Source: an uncultured bacterium (GTDB lineage: Bacteria > Fidelibacterota > Marinisomatia > Marinisomatales > UBA1611). Taken from it: DNA of 34,255 bases. The DNA is taken from positions 1-34,255 of the forward strand of contig CAJVZI010000012.1 of NCBI GenBank assembly GCA_913020665.1, in the 5' to 3' direction. A model generated the notes under the pieces. That model saw only the letters and a list, made by a program, of their open reading frames with translations. It ran no database searches and was not told the origin of the DNA. The translations under genes and the position numbers were made by a program. Position 1 is the stretch's first letter, and every line of letters begins with the position of its first letter. This document shows positions 2,185 through 34,255 of this stretch, piece after piece.

Positions 2185-2211
2185 AAAAAAGCCGCTCCAT
2201 CAGGCGGCTTT
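2185..2211 (-). terminator. Intrinsic terminator or attenuator hairpin
   Basis: On the minus strand an eight-pair stem, AAAGCCGC with GCGGCTTT, has an 8-nt loop and runs directly into six Ts (plus-strand As 2185-2190). It lies about 160-190 nt past the endonuclease stop codon and 52 nt before the 87-aa gene. It may simply end the restriction operon, or act as an attenuator in the leader of the two small genes. Confidence 0.8.
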
Positions 2212-2251
2212 ATGTTTCCTATTTTCCTAGGCACATCTAGCGTTTAAGGCT

Positions 2252-2299
2252 CTAACCACCGTGACCATGATTTATCTGGGCTCGGTTGGCGGGTTTCAT
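2252..2299 (-). CDS. Candidate 15-codon leader peptide
   Basis: A 15-codon ORF, MKPANRAQINHGHGG then TAG, is preceded by AGGAG 11 nt upstream. It is clearly more GC-rich than the AT-rich sequence around it. The ORF ends about 40 nt before the hairpin-plus-U-tract at 2185-2211, the geometry of a leader peptide followed by an attenuator. Evidence for translation is only the ribosome-binding site and the composition. A chance ORF of this length is common, so confidence is low. Confidence 0.3.
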   Translation of the reverse strand: MKPANRAQINHGHGG

Positions 2300-2309
2300 T
2301 TACGAAACC
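2292..2309 (-). promoter_or_regulatory. Hairpin enclosing a possible start codon
   Basis: GGTTTC and GAAACC form a perfect 6-bp stem with the loop GTAAAT on the minus strand. The ATG of the candidate leader ORF straddles the loop and the first base of the 3' arm, while the AGGAG ribosome-binding site (2311-2315) stays just outside. The hairpin could hide the start codon. Its function is inferred only from position. Confidence 0.4.
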
Positions 2310-2371
2310 ACTCCTGATGATAAGCTAATTTATATAAAATAAGATTTAAACACTATATCTATATTTTATAA

Positions 2372-3049
2372 TTAAATAGTAGTTTCTATATCTTTGAATT
2401 GTCCCTCACCTTGCGGAATTATTCTTTCACCATTCTTATATACTAAACCAAGTTTTCCATTAATACCTGGTATTTTATAATGTTTAATTTCAAAAGATTC
2501 TGGTCTATCTAAACCAATAATTAGAAGTGGAACAGTTAAATAATTCATTAGCGGTTTACGAAAAAGCTCAAAATCTTCAAATGTTTTTACAGTACCATCA
2601 AAACCTCCACTTCTTTTCATTTCTGAAGTAGCAAATACAACAATACCAATTTCTGTTTGAATTTCTTTTTCTACATGATTGATTTCACTGGCTATTACTG
2701 GCTTCATCAAATTCCATGCAGTTGCTTCTCCATGATTAAATGCAACCTCTACGGAAAATTTTCCTTTTGTAAAATCTAGCCTCCAAGGATGTTTATAAGA
2801 TCCTGATTTGAAAATTTTTGATTCACTTTTCCAACCTTTCTCTTCAAGTCTAATCTTAATTAAATGATTTATAGATTTACTTAAGCTTTTCCCTCTTTTT
2901 AATCCAAGACGATTATAAAAATCATTAATTAAGTCATCATCAGTAATATTTTCTAAAATGTTTAATAGCTCGCTGTAATCATTCCTTAAATATGGATTAC
3001 CTTGGATTATACTTTCAGCGTGCCTATGAGATTTTTTTATTAATCTCAT
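2372..3049 (-). CDS. Type II restriction endonuclease, BglII-like
   Basis: Probable restriction endonuclease of 225 aa, assigned from its content and from its position directly after a C5 methyltransferase. Residues 89-103 read W-R-L-D-F-T-K-G-K-F-S-V-E-V-A. The Asp92 to Glu101 spacing equals the Asp84-Glu93 pair of R.BglII, and these would bind catalytic metal. BglII has Gln two residues after that Glu; here it is Ala103. The following segment F-N-H-G-E-A-x-A-W-N-L and a hydrophobic strand T-E-I-G-I-V-V-F-A fit the BamHI/BglII-type fold. The N-terminal 70 residues are helical and charged. The ATG overlaps the methyltransferase stop (ATGA), so cutting enzyme is made only from a transcript that also encodes the protective methylase. 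The recognition site cannot be told from sequence. The endonuclease role is likely; the BglII subfamily assignment is moderate. Confidence 0.7.
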   Translation of the reverse strand: MRLIKKSHRHAESIIQGNPYLRNDYSELLNILENITDDDLINDFYNRLGLKRGKSLSKSINHLIKIRLEEKGWKSESKIFKSGSYKHPWRLDFTKGKFSVEVAFNHGEATAWNLMKPVIASEINHVEKEIQTEIGIVVFATSEMKRSGGFDGTVKTFEDFELFRKPLMNYLTVPLLIIGLDRPESFEIKHYKIPGINGKLGLVYKNGERIIPQGEGQFKDIETTI

Positions 3050-4266
3050 TGCTTTAGTTTAATGTTTAGTGCATTTCCAATTTTTTCTACAATTCCAACA
3101 ACTAAAGCATTTCCCATAAAAAATGCTCTTTTTGCATCTGTAATACCTTCAAGTTTTGTGTGGTCATCAGGGAACATATTTAACCTCTCCAACTCAATTG
3201 GTGTCAACCTCCTTAATCCTTGTTTTGTTTTGATTACATGTTTAAACCTAGAAGGCGAAGGACCACCCTCACCAGTGATAATTGTTCTAGATGGCTTATT
3301 TAATCTGTCAGGATAAATCATACCTCCCTCACTGTAATTGTATTCGAAGCCGGTTTTAGTCACGCGTTTTTCTTTTTTCGCACCTTTAAGGTATTCCCAT
3401 TTATCTTTATCTTCATTCTTAATGAAAAATGTTTTATCTATGCTACCATTTTGAATAATATCCCTAAGCATTACTTCCTTTCCTTCATAATTTGGCTCTG
3501 TTTTTATAGTAGAGACTTTTCCATCAATCATTAATCCCGTATTTAAAAATGGCGATAGTTTTTTATTCTTATTGAATTTATTTGTTAATTCAACAAGGTC
3601 ACCTTGCAAATCAAAGTTTTGAAGTTCTCCTTTAGGACTAATTGGAAATGCATTGGTAATAACCCCAGCTTCAAAAATCCATTTATTAATGTCCATTTTT
3701 GTTAATTTTTTATAAATATCAGTGCTTTTATGATAGCCTAAGAAAAATATCCTTCTTCTTCTTTGGGGCATTCCATATTCTGCTGCGTTTATAACGCGCC
3801 ATTCGATAGCATATCCAAGCTCATTAAGACTTTGAAGCATTACTGCAAAATCACGCCCCCTTTGATTCGCTGGAGATTTCAAAAGTCTATCTACGTTTTC
3901 CAAAAAAAGATATTTTGGACGATTATTTCCTTTCTCATTGAGGATTCTGTGAATTGACCACCATAAAACTCCCTTTCTGCCTATTAATCCTCTAGAATTA
4001 TTTAATGTCGTAGCAACTGAGTAGTCCTGACATGGGAATCCTCCGCAAAGGAGATCGTGATCTGGAATATCATCTGTAGGAACTAATGCAATATCAACAT
4101 TAGAATGGTTTTCTTTACCAAAACGTTTTTCATAAACCATAGATGCATGTTGCGTTTTTGTTAATGGTTCCCATTGATTACTCCAAATAATCTTAAAACC
4201 ATTTTTTTCAAGACCCAGGCGAAAACCACCTACCCCTGCAAATAATTCTGCTACTTTTAATGCCAC
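3046..4266 (-). CDS. DNA (cytosine-5) methyltransferase
   Basis: Complete C5-cytosine methyltransferase (406 aa) that transfers a methyl group from SAM to a cytosine within the partner endonuclease's target. The motifs occur in canonical order. Motif I (SAM binding) is A-E-L-F-A-G-V-G-G-F at 6-15. Motif IV is GGFPCQDYS with the nucleophile Cys79. Motif VI is F-L-E-N-V (121-125). Motif VIII is G-M-P-Q-R-R-R-R around 164-171. The target-recognition region lies in the middle, at about 190-340. Motifs IX-X are R-L-T-P-I-E-L-E-R-L and F-F-M-G-N-A-L-V near the C-terminus. The GTG start shares its first base with the vsr stop (TAGTG), and the gene's own stop overlaps the endonuclease start. No controller (C) protein gene is present, so stoichiometry is probably set by translational coupling. 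The gene is AT-rich compared with the metabolic operons nearby, as expected for a mobile defence cassette. Confidence 0.95.
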   Translation of the reverse strand: MALKVAELFAGVGGFRLGLEKNGFKIIWSNQWEPLTKTQHASMVYEKRFGKENHSNVDIALVPTDDIPDHDLLCGGFPCQDYSVATTLNNSRGLIGRKGVLWWSIHRILNEKGNNRPKYLFLENVDRLLKSPANQRGRDFAVMLQSLNELGYAIEWRVINAAEYGMPQRRRRIFFLGYHKSTDIYKKLTKMDINKWIFEAGVITNAFPISPKGELQNFDLQGDLVELTNKFNKNKKLSPFLNTGLMIDGKVSTIKTEPNYEGKEVMLRDIIQNGSIDKTFFIKNEDKDKWEYLKGAKKEKRVTKTGFEYNYSEGGMIYPDRLNKPSRTIITGEGGPSPSRFKHVIKTKQGLRRLTPIELERLNMFPDDHTKLEGITDAKRAFFMGNALVVGIVEKIGNALNIKLKQ

Positions 4267-4700
4267 TATAAATTGACCTTAATCTTATTAATACAATCTT
4301 TGATATTTGTTTTAATTTTACATTCCCAAAATACTAATACCGTCCATCCAAGATCAAGAAGTTCCTTCTCTTTTTTCTTGTCTCTTTTGATATTTTTTTC
4401 AAATTTTTTTTTCCAAAAATCTGTATTGGTCTTTGGCAATGACAGTTCACAATAAGGGCACCGATGCCAATAACATCCATTAATAAAAATACCGATTTTT
4501 CTTCCTGGGAATGCAATATCAGGTTTACCAGGTACTTTTTTCCAGTTAAGACGGTATCCTCTTATACCATCCGCATATAGAGCTTTTCTGAGTTTTAACT
4601 CTGGCTTGGTATTCTTGGCCTTATTAGAGCTCATTACCCGAGAAACATTTTCATTCAAGGGTACTGGTGAACGCTTATCTCTTATATATACTTTCTTCAA
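4266..4700 (-). CDS. vsr: Very short patch repair endonuclease (Vsr)
   Basis: This nicking endonuclease acts at T:G mismatches left when 5-methylcytosine deaminates, and so limits mutation at the sites methylated by the adjacent C5 methyltransferase. The family signature is clear. T-K-P-E-L lies near 31-35. P-G-K-P-D-I-A-F-P holds Asp61 (Asp51 in E. coli Vsr). I-F-I-N-G-C-Y-W-H-R-C holds His79 (His69 equivalent). W-x-V-L-V-F-W-E-C lies at the C-terminus. The length (144 aa) is normal. The first in-frame start after a stop is a TTG at 4700 with no good ribosome-binding site; the next ATG, at 4634, would remove part of the N-terminal helix, so I keep the TTG with reservations. The gene lies 38 nt downstream of the amidase on the same strand, and its stop overlaps the methyltransferase start. 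Confidence 0.92.
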   Translation of the reverse strand: MKKVYIRDKRSPVPLNENVSRVMSSNKAKNTKPELKLRKALYADGIRGYRLNWKKVPGKPDIAFPGRKIGIFINGCYWHRCPYCELSLPKTNTDFWKKKFEKNIKRDKKKEKELLDLGWTVLVFWECKIKTNIKDCINKIKVNL

Positions 4701-29604: not shown

Positions 29605-30552
29605 CTATGAATAGTGTTGTGCTTTTATACAAAACTCTCTGTAAATACGAGCAAGCTCCTGCAGCATCTCTACTGATGATTGAAAATTATAAGACATGAT
29701 ATGTTCAACATTCAAACCCACAGGGACTCTTAGGTCATTTTCTTGAATATAATTTAAGATCTCATTTAAAACCTCAATTGACACATCAAGTGAACGCTCT
29801 GTCATAGAACCAGGCCTTGCCTGTAAATACTTTTCTGTATCATCTGGGATCTCTACACCTAACCATTTTAAGAATTCAACATTTTTTTGGGACGAAACAG
29901 GAGCAAAACTCAATAATATTCTTCTAGGAAAAGTATCAAGTTCATCACACCGCTGTTGATAATTATTGATCATTTTTATGATATTCTTTGAATCATAGAG
30001 GACTTGCGTAGTAAAGAACTCTGAACCGTTATCACTCTTTTTTATCAAGTTTTTCGATTCTGCTTTTCTGCTTGGAATTGCAATGCCACCACAGAAAATA
30101 TTGCCACCATTTTGATTATACTTATCAGTAATTGCTTTAAGTGCCTCATTCACGGTGGGACCGGGGTAACTAACTTTGCTTGATTCACCACCTACTATGA
30201 TCATATTCTCTATCTCGTATTTGGTATTTGTCTCCTCCAGCCACTTCATTTGCCTATCATACGGATCATGCACTACTACCCTATTTATAATTGCCTCGAT
30301 ACCAACTATATCTTGCAGTAGCATACCAAATTCTCTCGGTTCACCTCGCTTCTGGTTTACAACGGGCCGGTCTCCTCTTCCAACCTCATCATGAACCTCG
30401 GGTATATTGATAGCATCTATATGTGTTTGAGATAAAAGAGAACTTATGGTCTCTGCATAGGAATTTAGAGTCCCATCCTTCTCTCTTGGTGGAAGTATCT
30501 CATAGGCGACCACTGGCCTCTGTGGTTTTTTAATTTTATCTCGTATTCTCAT
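29605..30552 (-). CDS. metF: Divergent methylenetetrahydrofolate reductase
   Basis: Predicted TIM-barrel flavoenzyme that reduces 5,10-methylene-THF to 5-methyl-THF, the methyl donor for MetH. It is 315 aa, near the usual 300. Alignable landmarks with E. coli MetF are Glu18 in Y-E-I-L-P-P (E. coli Glu28), Gln183 in F-F-T-T-Q-V-L-Y-D (Gln183 equivalent) and L-N-V-E-H-I-M near the C-terminus. At the position of E. coli Asp120 (R-G-D) this protein has V-G-G-E, that is Glu123, so the residue tuning the flavin is changed. Overall similarity to classical MetF is low. Its start overlaps the metH stop (ATGA), and it sits between metH and metK, which strongly supports the role. Whether NADH or another electron donor is used cannot be read. 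Confidence 0.82.
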
Positions 30553-33500
30553 GTTATCTTTTCATTTTTTAATACACTAAAATATTTTGCTTTTGGATGC
30601 GAAAAATACCAGCCGCATACTGATGCCGCAGGGTACATTGCTCTTGATTCCGTTAACTCAACCCCAATGTTATCACTTACACTCAACAATTTCCATATCT
30701 TATCTTTTTCTTTATGGTCTGGACATGCTGGATATCCAGGGGCAGGCCGAATCCCTATATATTTTTCTTTTAATAGATCATCAGTAGTCAGTACTTCATT
30801 TTTAGCATAACCCCAATGCTCTTTTCTAACTTTTTCATGTAACCATTCTGCAGCCGCTTCAGCAAACCGATCAGCTATAACTTTTACCATTATCGCATTA
30901 TAATCATCATTATCTAATTCAAATTGTTCTACGAGAGATTCTAGACCATGTCCTGCGGTTACAGCGAACATGCCTAAAAAATCGTTACCATCAGCAGAAA
31001 CATAATCAGATAAAGAGTAGTTTGGACCATTTCCTTTATCTAACATCTGCCTTGGAAATTCAAAGGCAATATCCTGGTCTAATATATGGACCTGCTCATT
31101 TTCAGTCCTTGCTGGAAAAAGACCAAATACTGCTTTTGCTTTCAATGAACTTGATTTGATAATGTTTTCCAATAAATCCAAAGCATCATTATATACTTTT
31201 GTTGCTTCTATTCCTTTTTCAGGGTCATCAAGAATAGATGGATAAATACCCTTAAACTCCCAAGCATGAAAAAATGGCGTCCAGTCTATATACTCTTTGA
31301 GAATTGCAATAGGGATTTCATCAACACAATGGACACCCATATTAATGGGTTTAAATGGATTATGGTCTAAGATGGGTTTTCTTTCTCTAGCTTGGTCTAT
31401 AGATATCAGACGAACATCTTTTTTATTTTCATAAAAAGTATTTCGAATGGCTTCATATTCTTTTACACTAGTATCTATAAAATCTGGTTTATGCTCTTCA
31501 TTCAATAATTTTGCAGCAACACCTACACAGCGACTTGCATCTGTCACATGAAATACATTTGAAGGATACATTTCTTCGATCTTTACAGCAGTATGTTTCT
31601 TGCTTGTAGTTGCCCCTCCAATCAATAATGGAATCTTAAAATCAAGACGTTTCATTTCTGATGCCACATGTACCATCTCATCCAAACTTGGAGTTATAAG
31701 ACCGGATAATCCAATGATATCTGCATTTACTTCCTTTGCCTTAGATAAGATCTTATCACTATGCACCATAACACCAAGATCAATAATTGTATATCCATTA
31801 CAACTCAACACGACACCAACAATATTTTTTCCAATATCGTGGACATCTCCTTTTACAGTTGCAAGTACAATTGTACCATTTGAGATGTCCTCTAATCCTT
31901 TTTCCTGTTTTTCCTTTTCAATAAATGGAATTAGGTATGCTACTGCCTTTTTCATTACTCTAGCAGATTTAACAACCTGTGGAAGGAACATTTTTCCAGC
32001 TCCAAAAAGATCTCCTACCTTATTCATACCATCCATCAAAGGCCCCTCTATCACTTCAATAGGTTTATCCAAAGATCTCCTTGCTATCTCCGTATCTTCT
32101 TCAATGTATTTATCTAAACCTTCTACCAAAGAGTATGCAAGACGCTTTTCAATTGAAAGATCTCTCCACTCTGAATCCTCTTTTTGTTCTTTCTTCACAC
32201 CTCTATATTTTTCAGCCAGCTCAACTAATTTATCCGTCGCATTTTTACTCTTATCAAATAGCACATCTTCAATAGCATCTCTTAGTTCAGTATCAATATC
32301 ATCATAAACCGTAAGTTGACCAGCATTCACAATACCCATGTCCATACCATTTTGAATTGCATGATATAAAAAGCATGAATGCATTGATTCTCTGACACTG
32401 TCATTACCTCTAAATGAAAAAGAGAGATTGCTAACACCGCCACTAACGTGCACCAATGGCATTAATTTTTTTATTTCTTTTGAAGCATCAATAAATGCTT
32501 TACCATATTGGTTATGTTCTTCTATGCCAGTGGCCACAGCAAAGATATTTGGGTCAAAAATAATATCCTCGTCTCTGATACCAGCTTCTTTCGTTAATAT
32601 TTCATATGCCCTACTACATATCTCAACTTTTCTTTCAAATGTATCTGCTTGACCATCTTCATCAAACGCCATTACAACAACAGCAGCACCATATTGCCTT
32701 ATTAATAGTGCTTGCCGAAGAAATTCATCTTTCCCCTCTTTTAAAGATATAGAATTGACAATTCCTTTACCTTGAATATTCTTAAGTCCAGCCTCTATAA
32801 TATCCCACTTACTAGAATCGATCATGATAGGCACTCTGCTGATATTAGGCTCAGAGGCGATAAGCCTGAGATATCTAACCATGGCATTCTCGCTATCTAA
32901 TAATCCTTCATCCATATTTATGTCAATAATCTGAGCACCATTATTGACCTGCTGGAGGGCAACCGATAAAGCCTCATCAAATTGATCTTCTTTGATCAGT
33001 CTTTTGAATCTTAGCGAGCCTGTTACGTTGGTCCTTTCTCCAATATTAACAAAATTTGTATCGGGACGAATGACCAATGGTTCTAGTCCACTTAATTTAG
33101 TGAATGAGTCAGTAATTGGAATTTGTCTGGGATTTTTACCATCAACAGCTATAGAAAATTCATGTATATGGTCTGGAGATGTTCCACAACAACCTCCTAT
33201 GATATTTACTAGATTAGCATCACTGAATTCTTTTAAATAACTAGACATCTGTTCAGGCGTCTCATCATAACCACCAAATTCATTAGGAAGTCCAGCATTT
33301 GGATATACTAAAATATTAGTATCGGCTATCTTTGATAGAGAATCAACATAGGGTCTAATTTGTTCTGCGCCAAGAGCACAATTAAGGCCAACTGCAAGCA
33401 ATTCAACATGTCGTATTGAATACCAAAATGCTTCCACTGTCTGCCCTGACAGTACCCTCCCACTCGCATCAGTGATAGTACCGGACACCATAATAGGTAT

Positions 33501-34106
33501 ACTATCCCCTCTTTTATTGAATAAAGACTGTATCGCAAATAGAGCAGCTTTACAATTCAATGTATCAAAAACAGTCTCTACAAGAAGAATATCTACCCCA
33601 CCATCCATCAAACCTTTTGCTTGTTCTTCATAGGCAACTACTAATTCATCAAAATCAATATTTCGATATTCTGGGCTAGAAACGTCCGGACTCATAGATG
33701 CTGTTTTGTTGGTTGGTCCAATAGCCCCACATACAAATCTTGGTTTTTCTGGGTCTTTTTTGGTGAATCTTTTTGCAGCCTGCACAGCGATCTTTGCTGA
33801 TGAATAGTTAAGCCTATATACAATATCTTCCATATTGTAATCTGCTTGCGATATAGATGTAGAGTTAAAAGTATTAGTTTCTATAAGATCTGCCCCTGCA
33901 TCCAAGTATGCAGTATGTATATCATTAACGATATCTGGTCTTGTTAAACTTAGAATATCATTGTTACCTATTAGATCAGAATGATGGTCTTTGAATTCTT
34001 CACCCCTAAAGTCCGATTCTTTTAGATCGTATGACTGCACCATGGTCCCCATAGCACCATCTAAAACAAGTATTCTATGATTTAATATATCTTTTATTTT
34101 TTCCAT
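30549..34106 (-). CDS. metH: Cobalamin-dependent methionine synthase
   Basis: Transfers methyl from 5-methyl-THF to homocysteine through methylcobalamin. All four modules are present in 1185 aa. The homocysteine domain (1 to about 320) has zinc ligands Cys243 (G-L-N-C) and Cys306-Cys307 (G-G-C-C-G). The folate domain (about 345-610) opens [10 protein letters not shown]. The B12 domain (about 645-880) has cobalt ligand His756 in G-D-V-H-D-I-G. The SAM-dependent reactivation domain (about 900-1185) has [11 protein letters not shown]. coli's ligand is His759, so spacing is intact. The ATG at 34106 gives the expected N-terminus; an in-frame stop lies 24 nt upstream. No ribosome-binding site precedes it; the U-tract of a terminator hairpin abuts the ATG. 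Expression is probably controlled by the SAM-II riboswitch upstream. Confidence 0.98.
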
Positions 34107-34132
34107 AAAAAAAGCCGGCGCTAGGTCCGGCT
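34107..34132 (-). terminator. Terminator hairpin between riboswitch and metH
   Basis: On the minus strand AGCCGG (34127-34132) pairs with CCGGCT (34113-34118) across an 8-nt loop, and a run of Ts ends exactly at the ATG of metH. It lies 14 nt after the SAM-II aptamer. It has the form of an intrinsic terminator, so it may act as the expression platform or as a read-through-dependent attenuator. Confidence 0.85.
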
Positions 34133-34146
34133 ATTATTTCTATTTA

Positions 34147-34197
34147 CCTTTTTAGCACATTTTTTTTACGTCGCGGCAATATGGTGCAAAGCACGAC
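34147..34197 (-). promoter_or_regulatory. SAM-II riboswitch
   Basis: The 51-nt minus-strand segment matches the SAM-II (metA) aptamer, which binds S-adenosylmethionine. Helix P1 is GUCGUG (34192-34197) with CGCGAC six bases long, with one U-G pair. The enclosed loop contains CUUU and ACCAUAUUGC, matching the conserved U-rich stretch and CCGUAUUGC of the Sargasso-Sea metX aptamer. The 3' part has AUGU, then GCUAAAAAGG, nearly invariant in the family. In the bound form the AAAGG end pairs into the pseudoknot. In known examples this hides the ribosome-binding site. Here a hairpin terminator follows, so the output may be transcriptional. It heads the metH-metF-metK-ahcY operon, exactly the expected target. 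Confidence 0.9.
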
Positions 34198-34204
34198 TAC
34201 AAAT

Positions 34205-34233
34205 AAATTAACTTATAATTATTTTAGATTCAA
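34205..34233 (-). promoter_or_regulatory. Possible promoter of the metH operon
   Basis: TTGAAT (34228-34233) and TAATTT (34205-34210) are 17 bp apart on the minus strand. A start about seven bases downstream would put the first transcribed base at the very 5' edge of the SAM-II aptamer. The -10 match is imperfect, so this is tentative. The region from here to the window end is AT-rich and shows no gene. Confidence 0.35.
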
Positions 34234-34255
34234 ATATTTTCTATTCGGGTATTTT

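Follow-up and report, generated by a model that had tools for sequence, protein, structure and literature searches.

How is a methionine synthase gene controlled when its start codon stands directly behind what looks like a transcription terminator? This question is raised by the metH leader of an uncultured bacterium, found on contig CAJVZI010000012.1 (assembly GCA_913020665.1), whose 34,255 nucleotides (nt) were analysed whole and are hereafter called the window. On the minus strand the order is a SAM-II (S-adenosylmethionine, SAM) riboswitch aptamer, a spacer, a 6-bp hairpin, seven U and the metH ATG; the leader lies at the window's end, and position 34255 is also the end of the contig. An earlier note had described a 14-nt spacer, a GC-rich hairpin of 6 bp, seven T and an ATG with no ribosome-binding site between. 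All of these are present, the spacer measuring 13 nt from the aptamer's GGU to the stem and 14 nt to the first G-C pair. Judged by its sequence and its relatives, the element is a true SAM-II riboswitch followed by a terminator; both the lineage and the target gene are new for SAM-II. The best reading of its function is SAM-dependent transcription attenuation of metH, OFF at high SAM, which we consider very probable; the earlier note, too, had suggested termination. The nearest relatives of the encoded MetH belong to metagenome-assembled genomes (MAGs) of Candidatus Neomarinimicrobiota (identity up to 74%), and we therefore assign the host to Marinimicrobia/SAR406. As the note anticipated, this lies outside the published range of SAM-II that we found.

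Is the aptamer what it appears to be? The Rfam model RF00521 (SAM_alpha, the SAM-II model) matches it over the full model length (35.1 bits, E = 1.4e-6 in a 256-nt stretch), and a search of the whole genome returned this site as the sole match (E = 2.3e-6). Matches to RF00521 occur in 25 of the 33 genomes of the host's family (13 over the cut-off) and in 105 of the 245 genomes of the phylum (53 over the cut-off); 99 of the phylum's matches sit, like the window's, upstream of metH, a methionine-pathway gene. In an alignment of 42 leaders, 97% of P1 cells are paired, with compensatory changes at one pair, and P1 also forms in the predicted fold of the window. The P2 pseudoknot pairs UUGC with GC(U)AA in all 42 leaders and ACC with GGU in 89% of cells, the register of its 3' side being the one that we take from general knowledge of SAM-II together with conservation.

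The window's copy nevertheless scores 0.9 bit below the Rfam gathering score of 36 bits, a point against our reading, and is absent from a gathering-level Rfam scan of the window. The earlier note had held that a score below threshold would undo the identification; formally the score is below, but the relatives over the threshold override it and the identification stands. The shortfall might instead betray a degenerate relative of SAM-II that does not bind SAM. We find this scarcely credible: all 96 leaders examined preserve the pseudoknot core UUGC/GCUAA, the context is that of methionine synthase, and relatives pass the cut-off. The low score is probably a consequence of the model's mainly alphaproteobacterial basis and not a sign of a dubious call.

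In the window, five of the six hairpin pairs are G-C, and a terminator scan picks up the hairpin together with its U tail. There are 13 terminator-like sites in 10 kb, compared with 5.2 expected by shuffling, so that the window's hairpin would count for little by itself; it gains its weight from conservation. A GC-rich hairpin with a U-tract is present in 96 of the 99 metH leaders, from 17 families. The other three were excluded from later counts: G133 was unreadable (N), and in G007 and G124 no convincing hairpin was called where expected. The stem varies (GCCGG/CCGGC, CCCGAU/AUCGGG, CCUCGA/UCGAGG, CCCCG/CGGGG) and covaries, with double changes in all six aligned pairs (score 0.325 versus 0.154 when shuffled, 0/500). 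A chance hairpin is ruled out by this conservation and covariation.

The distance from stem to start codon is conserved as well, at 6–13 nt in 79 of 95 leaders (14 of 17 families), and 26 of those 79 have only U in between. In the remaining 16 the ATG is 18–51 nt off, and a few of these have a Shine-Dalgarno-like motif, but the U-tract still adjoins the hairpin. The U-tract thus goes with the hairpin, the pattern of an intrinsic terminator, and not with the start codon. This bears directly on the idea that control is exerted on translation only, with the hairpin as a ribosome blocker and the U-rich run as a standby or S1 site. An unstructured U-rich run directly before the AUG, in a genome with few Shine-Dalgarno motifs, would suit that idea. 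However, the run stays with the hairpin when hairpin and AUG are separated, and five or more T precede the start in only 3 of 196 sampled starts of the host genome, metH included; we regard translation-only control as very unlikely. In two leaders of genus g11 (L003 and L012) the ATG behind the U-tract has been lost (TTTTTTATTTTGA[AG]TCAG), and metH would start at a TTG 9 nt behind the stem, or at ATT.

How might the aptamer speak to the terminator? The main mechanistic clue, absent from the earlier note, is a pairing of the aptamer's 3' strand with the terminator loop. The pseudoknot strand NNGCUAA is complementary to a loop UUAGCNN, and the GCUAA strand has two alternative partners, the aptamer's UUGC (in the SAM-bound pseudoknot) or the loop. 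UAGC stands in the loop in 63 of 96 leaders, as against 11 of 426 other terminator-like hairpins in 280 kb of host genome. Moreover, the helix reaches into variable positions, and the partners change together: GUGCUA/UAGCGC in the window, GUUGCUA/UAGCAAC and GAUGCUA/UAGCAUC in family f12, GAGCUAA/UUAGCUC in family f8 and AGCUAA/UUAGCU in genus g7.

These extensions were assessed in several ways. In an alignment-free test of 92 leaders (unique rows per family; four more leaders, with no loop motif of the sought kind, were unplaceable), a leader's own partners added 1.71 pairs to the core, compared with 1.13 for shuffled partners (0/20000). Among 73 aligned leaders, 81.5% of antiterminator cells are paired (76.8% when shuffled), with 28 double-change cells (8.2 when shuffled) and a covariation score of 0.193 (0.112 when shuffled, 0/500; slid registers reach at most 0.112). 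The first variable pair remains significant when tested at genus level (Fisher 3e-4 for U-A, 0.0018 for A-U). Given no structure, RNAalifold returned the antiterminator from 42 leaders and the terminator from 73. The duplex energy points the same way: −8.2 for own partners, −6.8 for partners swapped between families and −4.4 with shuffled loops. No nucleotide separates the antiterminator 3' strand from the terminator 3' arm, and so the two structures should not coexist; strand order, the missing linker and the pseudoknot geometry all suggest that they are mutually exclusive.

The computed basis of attenuation comprises aptamer homology, the conserved hairpin and U-tract, covariation in P1, P2, terminator and antiterminator, and the position of the start codon. 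It suggests a mechanism in which SAM binding, termination and folding kinetics would each have a part, and ribosome blocking may have one. When SAM is plentiful, the riboswitch would repress metH and probably also the overlapping MTHFR-like gene. The GUGCUAA strand would be locked in the P2 pseudoknot, the terminator hairpin would form, and RNA polymerase would halt in the U-tract just before the start codon. When SAM is scarce, GUGCUAA would instead pair with the newly made loop UAGCGC before the hairpin's 3' arm was complete; this antiterminator would exclude the terminator, and the polymerase would continue into metH. On read-through transcripts the hairpin would lie within the ribosome footprint of the AUG and may add translational repression.

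Besides the aptamer's score, several observations weigh against SAM-dependent attenuation. No terminator is visible in G007, and the whole leader of the window folds no better than its shuffles (z −0.66). Tested by genus, variable pairs 2 and 3 of the antiterminator fall short of significance, and the extension test gives p of about 0.07 when each family is represented by a single leader. Genus g6 and families f4 and f16 keep the terminator with little or no antiterminator extension beyond the core. The 42-leader alignment omitted several poorly fitting lineages; the 73-leader alignment kept them, and it is the larger tests that we rely on. Finally, the window's antiterminator (6 bp, one of them G-U, −7.9 kcal/mol) is weaker than the terminator (−10.3 kcal/mol) and has only one stem base in common with it; it must therefore act kinetically, by forming first.

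Could the terminator be constitutive, unrelated to SAM, or simply mark the end of an upstream gene? There is a precedent in Sinorhizobium meliloti metA, whose terminator follows SAM-II without a predicted link to the riboswitch (PMC9373788), and in L037, a relative from the same genus as the window's host, a same-strand upstream gene does end 134 nt before metH. But the hairpin is invariably found downstream of the aptamer, with which its loop covaries, and we think this explanation improbable enough to deserve little weight.

The position of the hairpin brings us to the ribosome. None of GGAG, GAGG or AGGA occurs from −20 to −4 of the window's metH start. A Shine-Dalgarno sequence in the aptamer's AAAAAGG was ruled out, at about 40 nt from the ATG, as was a metH start further downstream, the next ATGs lying inside the conserved DGAMGT motif; nearly all relatives place the start 15 codons ahead of that motif. 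Such a start is less odd than the earlier note had claimed. A Shine-Dalgarno-like motif precedes 24% of the sampled starts in the host genome, compared with a background of 8–10% and with 44% in E. coli under the same simple open reading frame (ORF) caller (34 genes only), so that a metH start without one is ordinary here; the abutting arrangement is, in addition, conserved. Loci from Aeromonas, Devosia and Bacteroidetes offered too few genes, with start calls too crude, for a useful Shine-Dalgarno comparison, and the 16S 3' end, which carries the anti-Shine-Dalgarno sequence, was not found in the incomplete host genome.

A compatible addition to SAM-dependent attenuation is that the hairpin serves twice: SAM would bring about the terminator, and on transcripts that escape, the hairpin would remain some 7 nt away from the AUG and obstruct the 30S subunit. 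Such dual platforms, with the terminator adjoining the ORF, were described by Barrick & Breaker 2007, and at the conserved distance of 6–13 nt a formed hairpin would clash with the ribosome, which makes a translational layer plausible but not needed. Indeed, the 16 leaders with a terminator and a distant ATG indicate that ribosome blocking is not required. Furthermore, the stem in the window buries no ribosome-binding motif; there is no Shine-Dalgarno-like motif to hide, and any effect on the ribosome would have to be steric overlap only. We rate a dual role as a serious possibility, a little short of an even chance.

How does the leader compare with known systems? The alphaproteobacterial SAM-II leaders of metA, metY and metZ (RF00521; PMC1273637, PMC2258182) share its P1 and P2 pseudoknot and its methionine-pathway context, and often have a terminator behind the aptamer. 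SAM-II with terminators has long been known, and the earlier note's statement that SAM-II mostly hides the ribosome-binding site is not supported. In 16 alphaproteobacterial genomes that we searched and inspected by eye, SAM-II is mostly followed by a terminator-like sequence, with longer spacers to the start codon, and the UAGC-loop antiterminator was not seen as a rule. In the alphaproteobacterial leaders, tens of nt usually separate the terminator from the start codon, which leaves room for a ribosome site, whereas in Marinimicrobia the two mostly abut. A proteobacterial survey lists metY, metA, metX, hom and others as SAM_alpha targets, and not metH (PMC4239095). The tandem SAM-II/SAM-V of Pelagibacter and relatives, also marine bacteria, likewise has SAM-II followed by an intrinsic terminator (PMC9481103), but the Marinimicrobia leader contains a single aptamer, and its terminator directly adjoins the start codon. 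In the 'dual' transcription/translation attenuators (PMC2258182) the terminator hairpin is similarly near enough to the ORF to block translation, although their ribosome site lies in the terminator and the window's leader has no such motif. SAM-II is also found with terminators before S. meliloti metZ and metA (PMC9373788); metZ is predicted to terminate on SAM, and for metA no SAM-II-driven antiterminator could be predicted, whereas the antiterminator of Marinimicrobia is supported by covariation.

The lineage, the metH target and the compact, conserved platform fused to the start codon look new; the parts are already known, and the arrangement looks undescribed. We found no relevant paper on riboswitches of methionine genes in SAR406/Marinimicrobia in the open-access literature, which is no proof of absence. 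More tentatively, and with the balance of probability somewhat against us, we suggest a platform that is spread across Marinimicrobia and distinct from the proteobacterial one, in which the pseudoknot strand reads the terminator loop, while the terminator hairpin, being joined to a start that lacks a Shine-Dalgarno sequence, also gates ribosomes.

With these results the range of SAM-II takes in an uncultured marine phylum and, as a target gene, metH. Expression platforms are usually too variable for both folds to be read from covariation; here, some 96 natural variants make terminator and antiterminator both readable. The leader also shows how far such a region can be shortened, down to direct contact between terminator and start codon, where genomes rely little on Shine-Dalgarno sequences; this compact design makes transcriptional and translational control separable by experiment.

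The features of the locus are collected in the table. The start of the MTHFR-like ORF overlaps the metH stop by 4 nt, and the two genes presumably form one operon.

Table. Features of the metH leader and neighbouring genes in the window
Feature	Position	Strand	Basis
SAM-II (SAM_alpha, RF00521) aptamer	34131..34207	-	covariance-model match; family- and phylum-wide homologues
P1 5' strand GUCGUG	34192..34197	-	P1 pairing in 42 leaders; predicted fold
P1 3' strand CGCGAC	34170..34175	-	P1 pairing in 42 leaders; predicted fold
P2 pseudoknot 5' side, ACC (34185-34183) and UUGC (34179-34176)	34176..34185	-	pairing in 42 leaders
P2 pseudoknot 3' side, GC(U)AA ... GGU	34146..34156	-	pairing in 42 leaders
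Proposed antiterminator 5' strand GUGCUA, overlapping P2 3' side	34153..34158	-	covariation with terminator loop
Proposed antiterminator 3' strand UAGCGC, terminator loop and first base of 3' arm	34118..34123	-	loop enrichment; covariation
Predicted intrinsic terminator hairpin AGCCGG-ACCUAGCG-CCGGCU, 6 bp, -10.3 kcal/mol	34113..34132	-	terminator scan; stem covariation
U-tract, 7 U, adjoining ATG; first U can pair with A34132	34107..34113	-	sequence; conserved in relatives
metH, cobalamin-dependent methionine synthase, ATG at 34106	30549..34106	-	TIGR02082, 1706 bits (cut-off 1011)
MTHFR-like (metF-type) ORF	29605..30552	-	Pfam PF02219, 32.4 bits (cut-off 24)

Other riboswitches occur in the window and the phylum. 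A SAM-I/IV riboswitch (RF01725) lies at window positions 2202-2325 on the minus strand (49.3 bits, over the cut-off); the host genome has four RF01725 matches plus the single SAM-II. The small ORFs behind the window's SAM-I/IV element (1870-2133 and 1580-1870) have no Pfam match. Tandems of SAM-II and SAM-I/IV were reportedly described in 2022. A second kind of SAM-II-like element occurs in families f12, f16, f17 and f30 (in tandem in L153, L154, L177 and L181; also L148, L178, L182, L192 and L193). At several of these loci a SAM_alpha match and a terminator come before an RF01726-like aptamer whose P2 has become AGG/CCC, and the elements precede small ORFs that do not resemble methionine genes. 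L179 (family f16) and L182 (f12) look identical over the part compared, which suggests mobile DNA or cross-contamination between MAGs; one pattern scan for a viral origin of the tandem variants found nothing. On a contig of G014 (L194:8722-9256), about 360 nt separate a SAM-I/IV riboswitch from an RF01726-like aptamer (40.3 bits, cut-off 44); the gene downstream of the latter encodes an AAA ATPase and has an evident Shine-Dalgarno sequence.

Two further regions of the window's minus strand deserve mention. The ORF at 666-1604 has a transpeptidase domain and an N-terminal stretch that we take to resemble part of a nucleotide pyrophosphohydrolase; it is possibly an assembly chimera. At 2372-4700, three adjacent ORFs resemble by eye a restriction-modification locus (cytosine methyltransferase, endonuclease and a Vsr-like protein).
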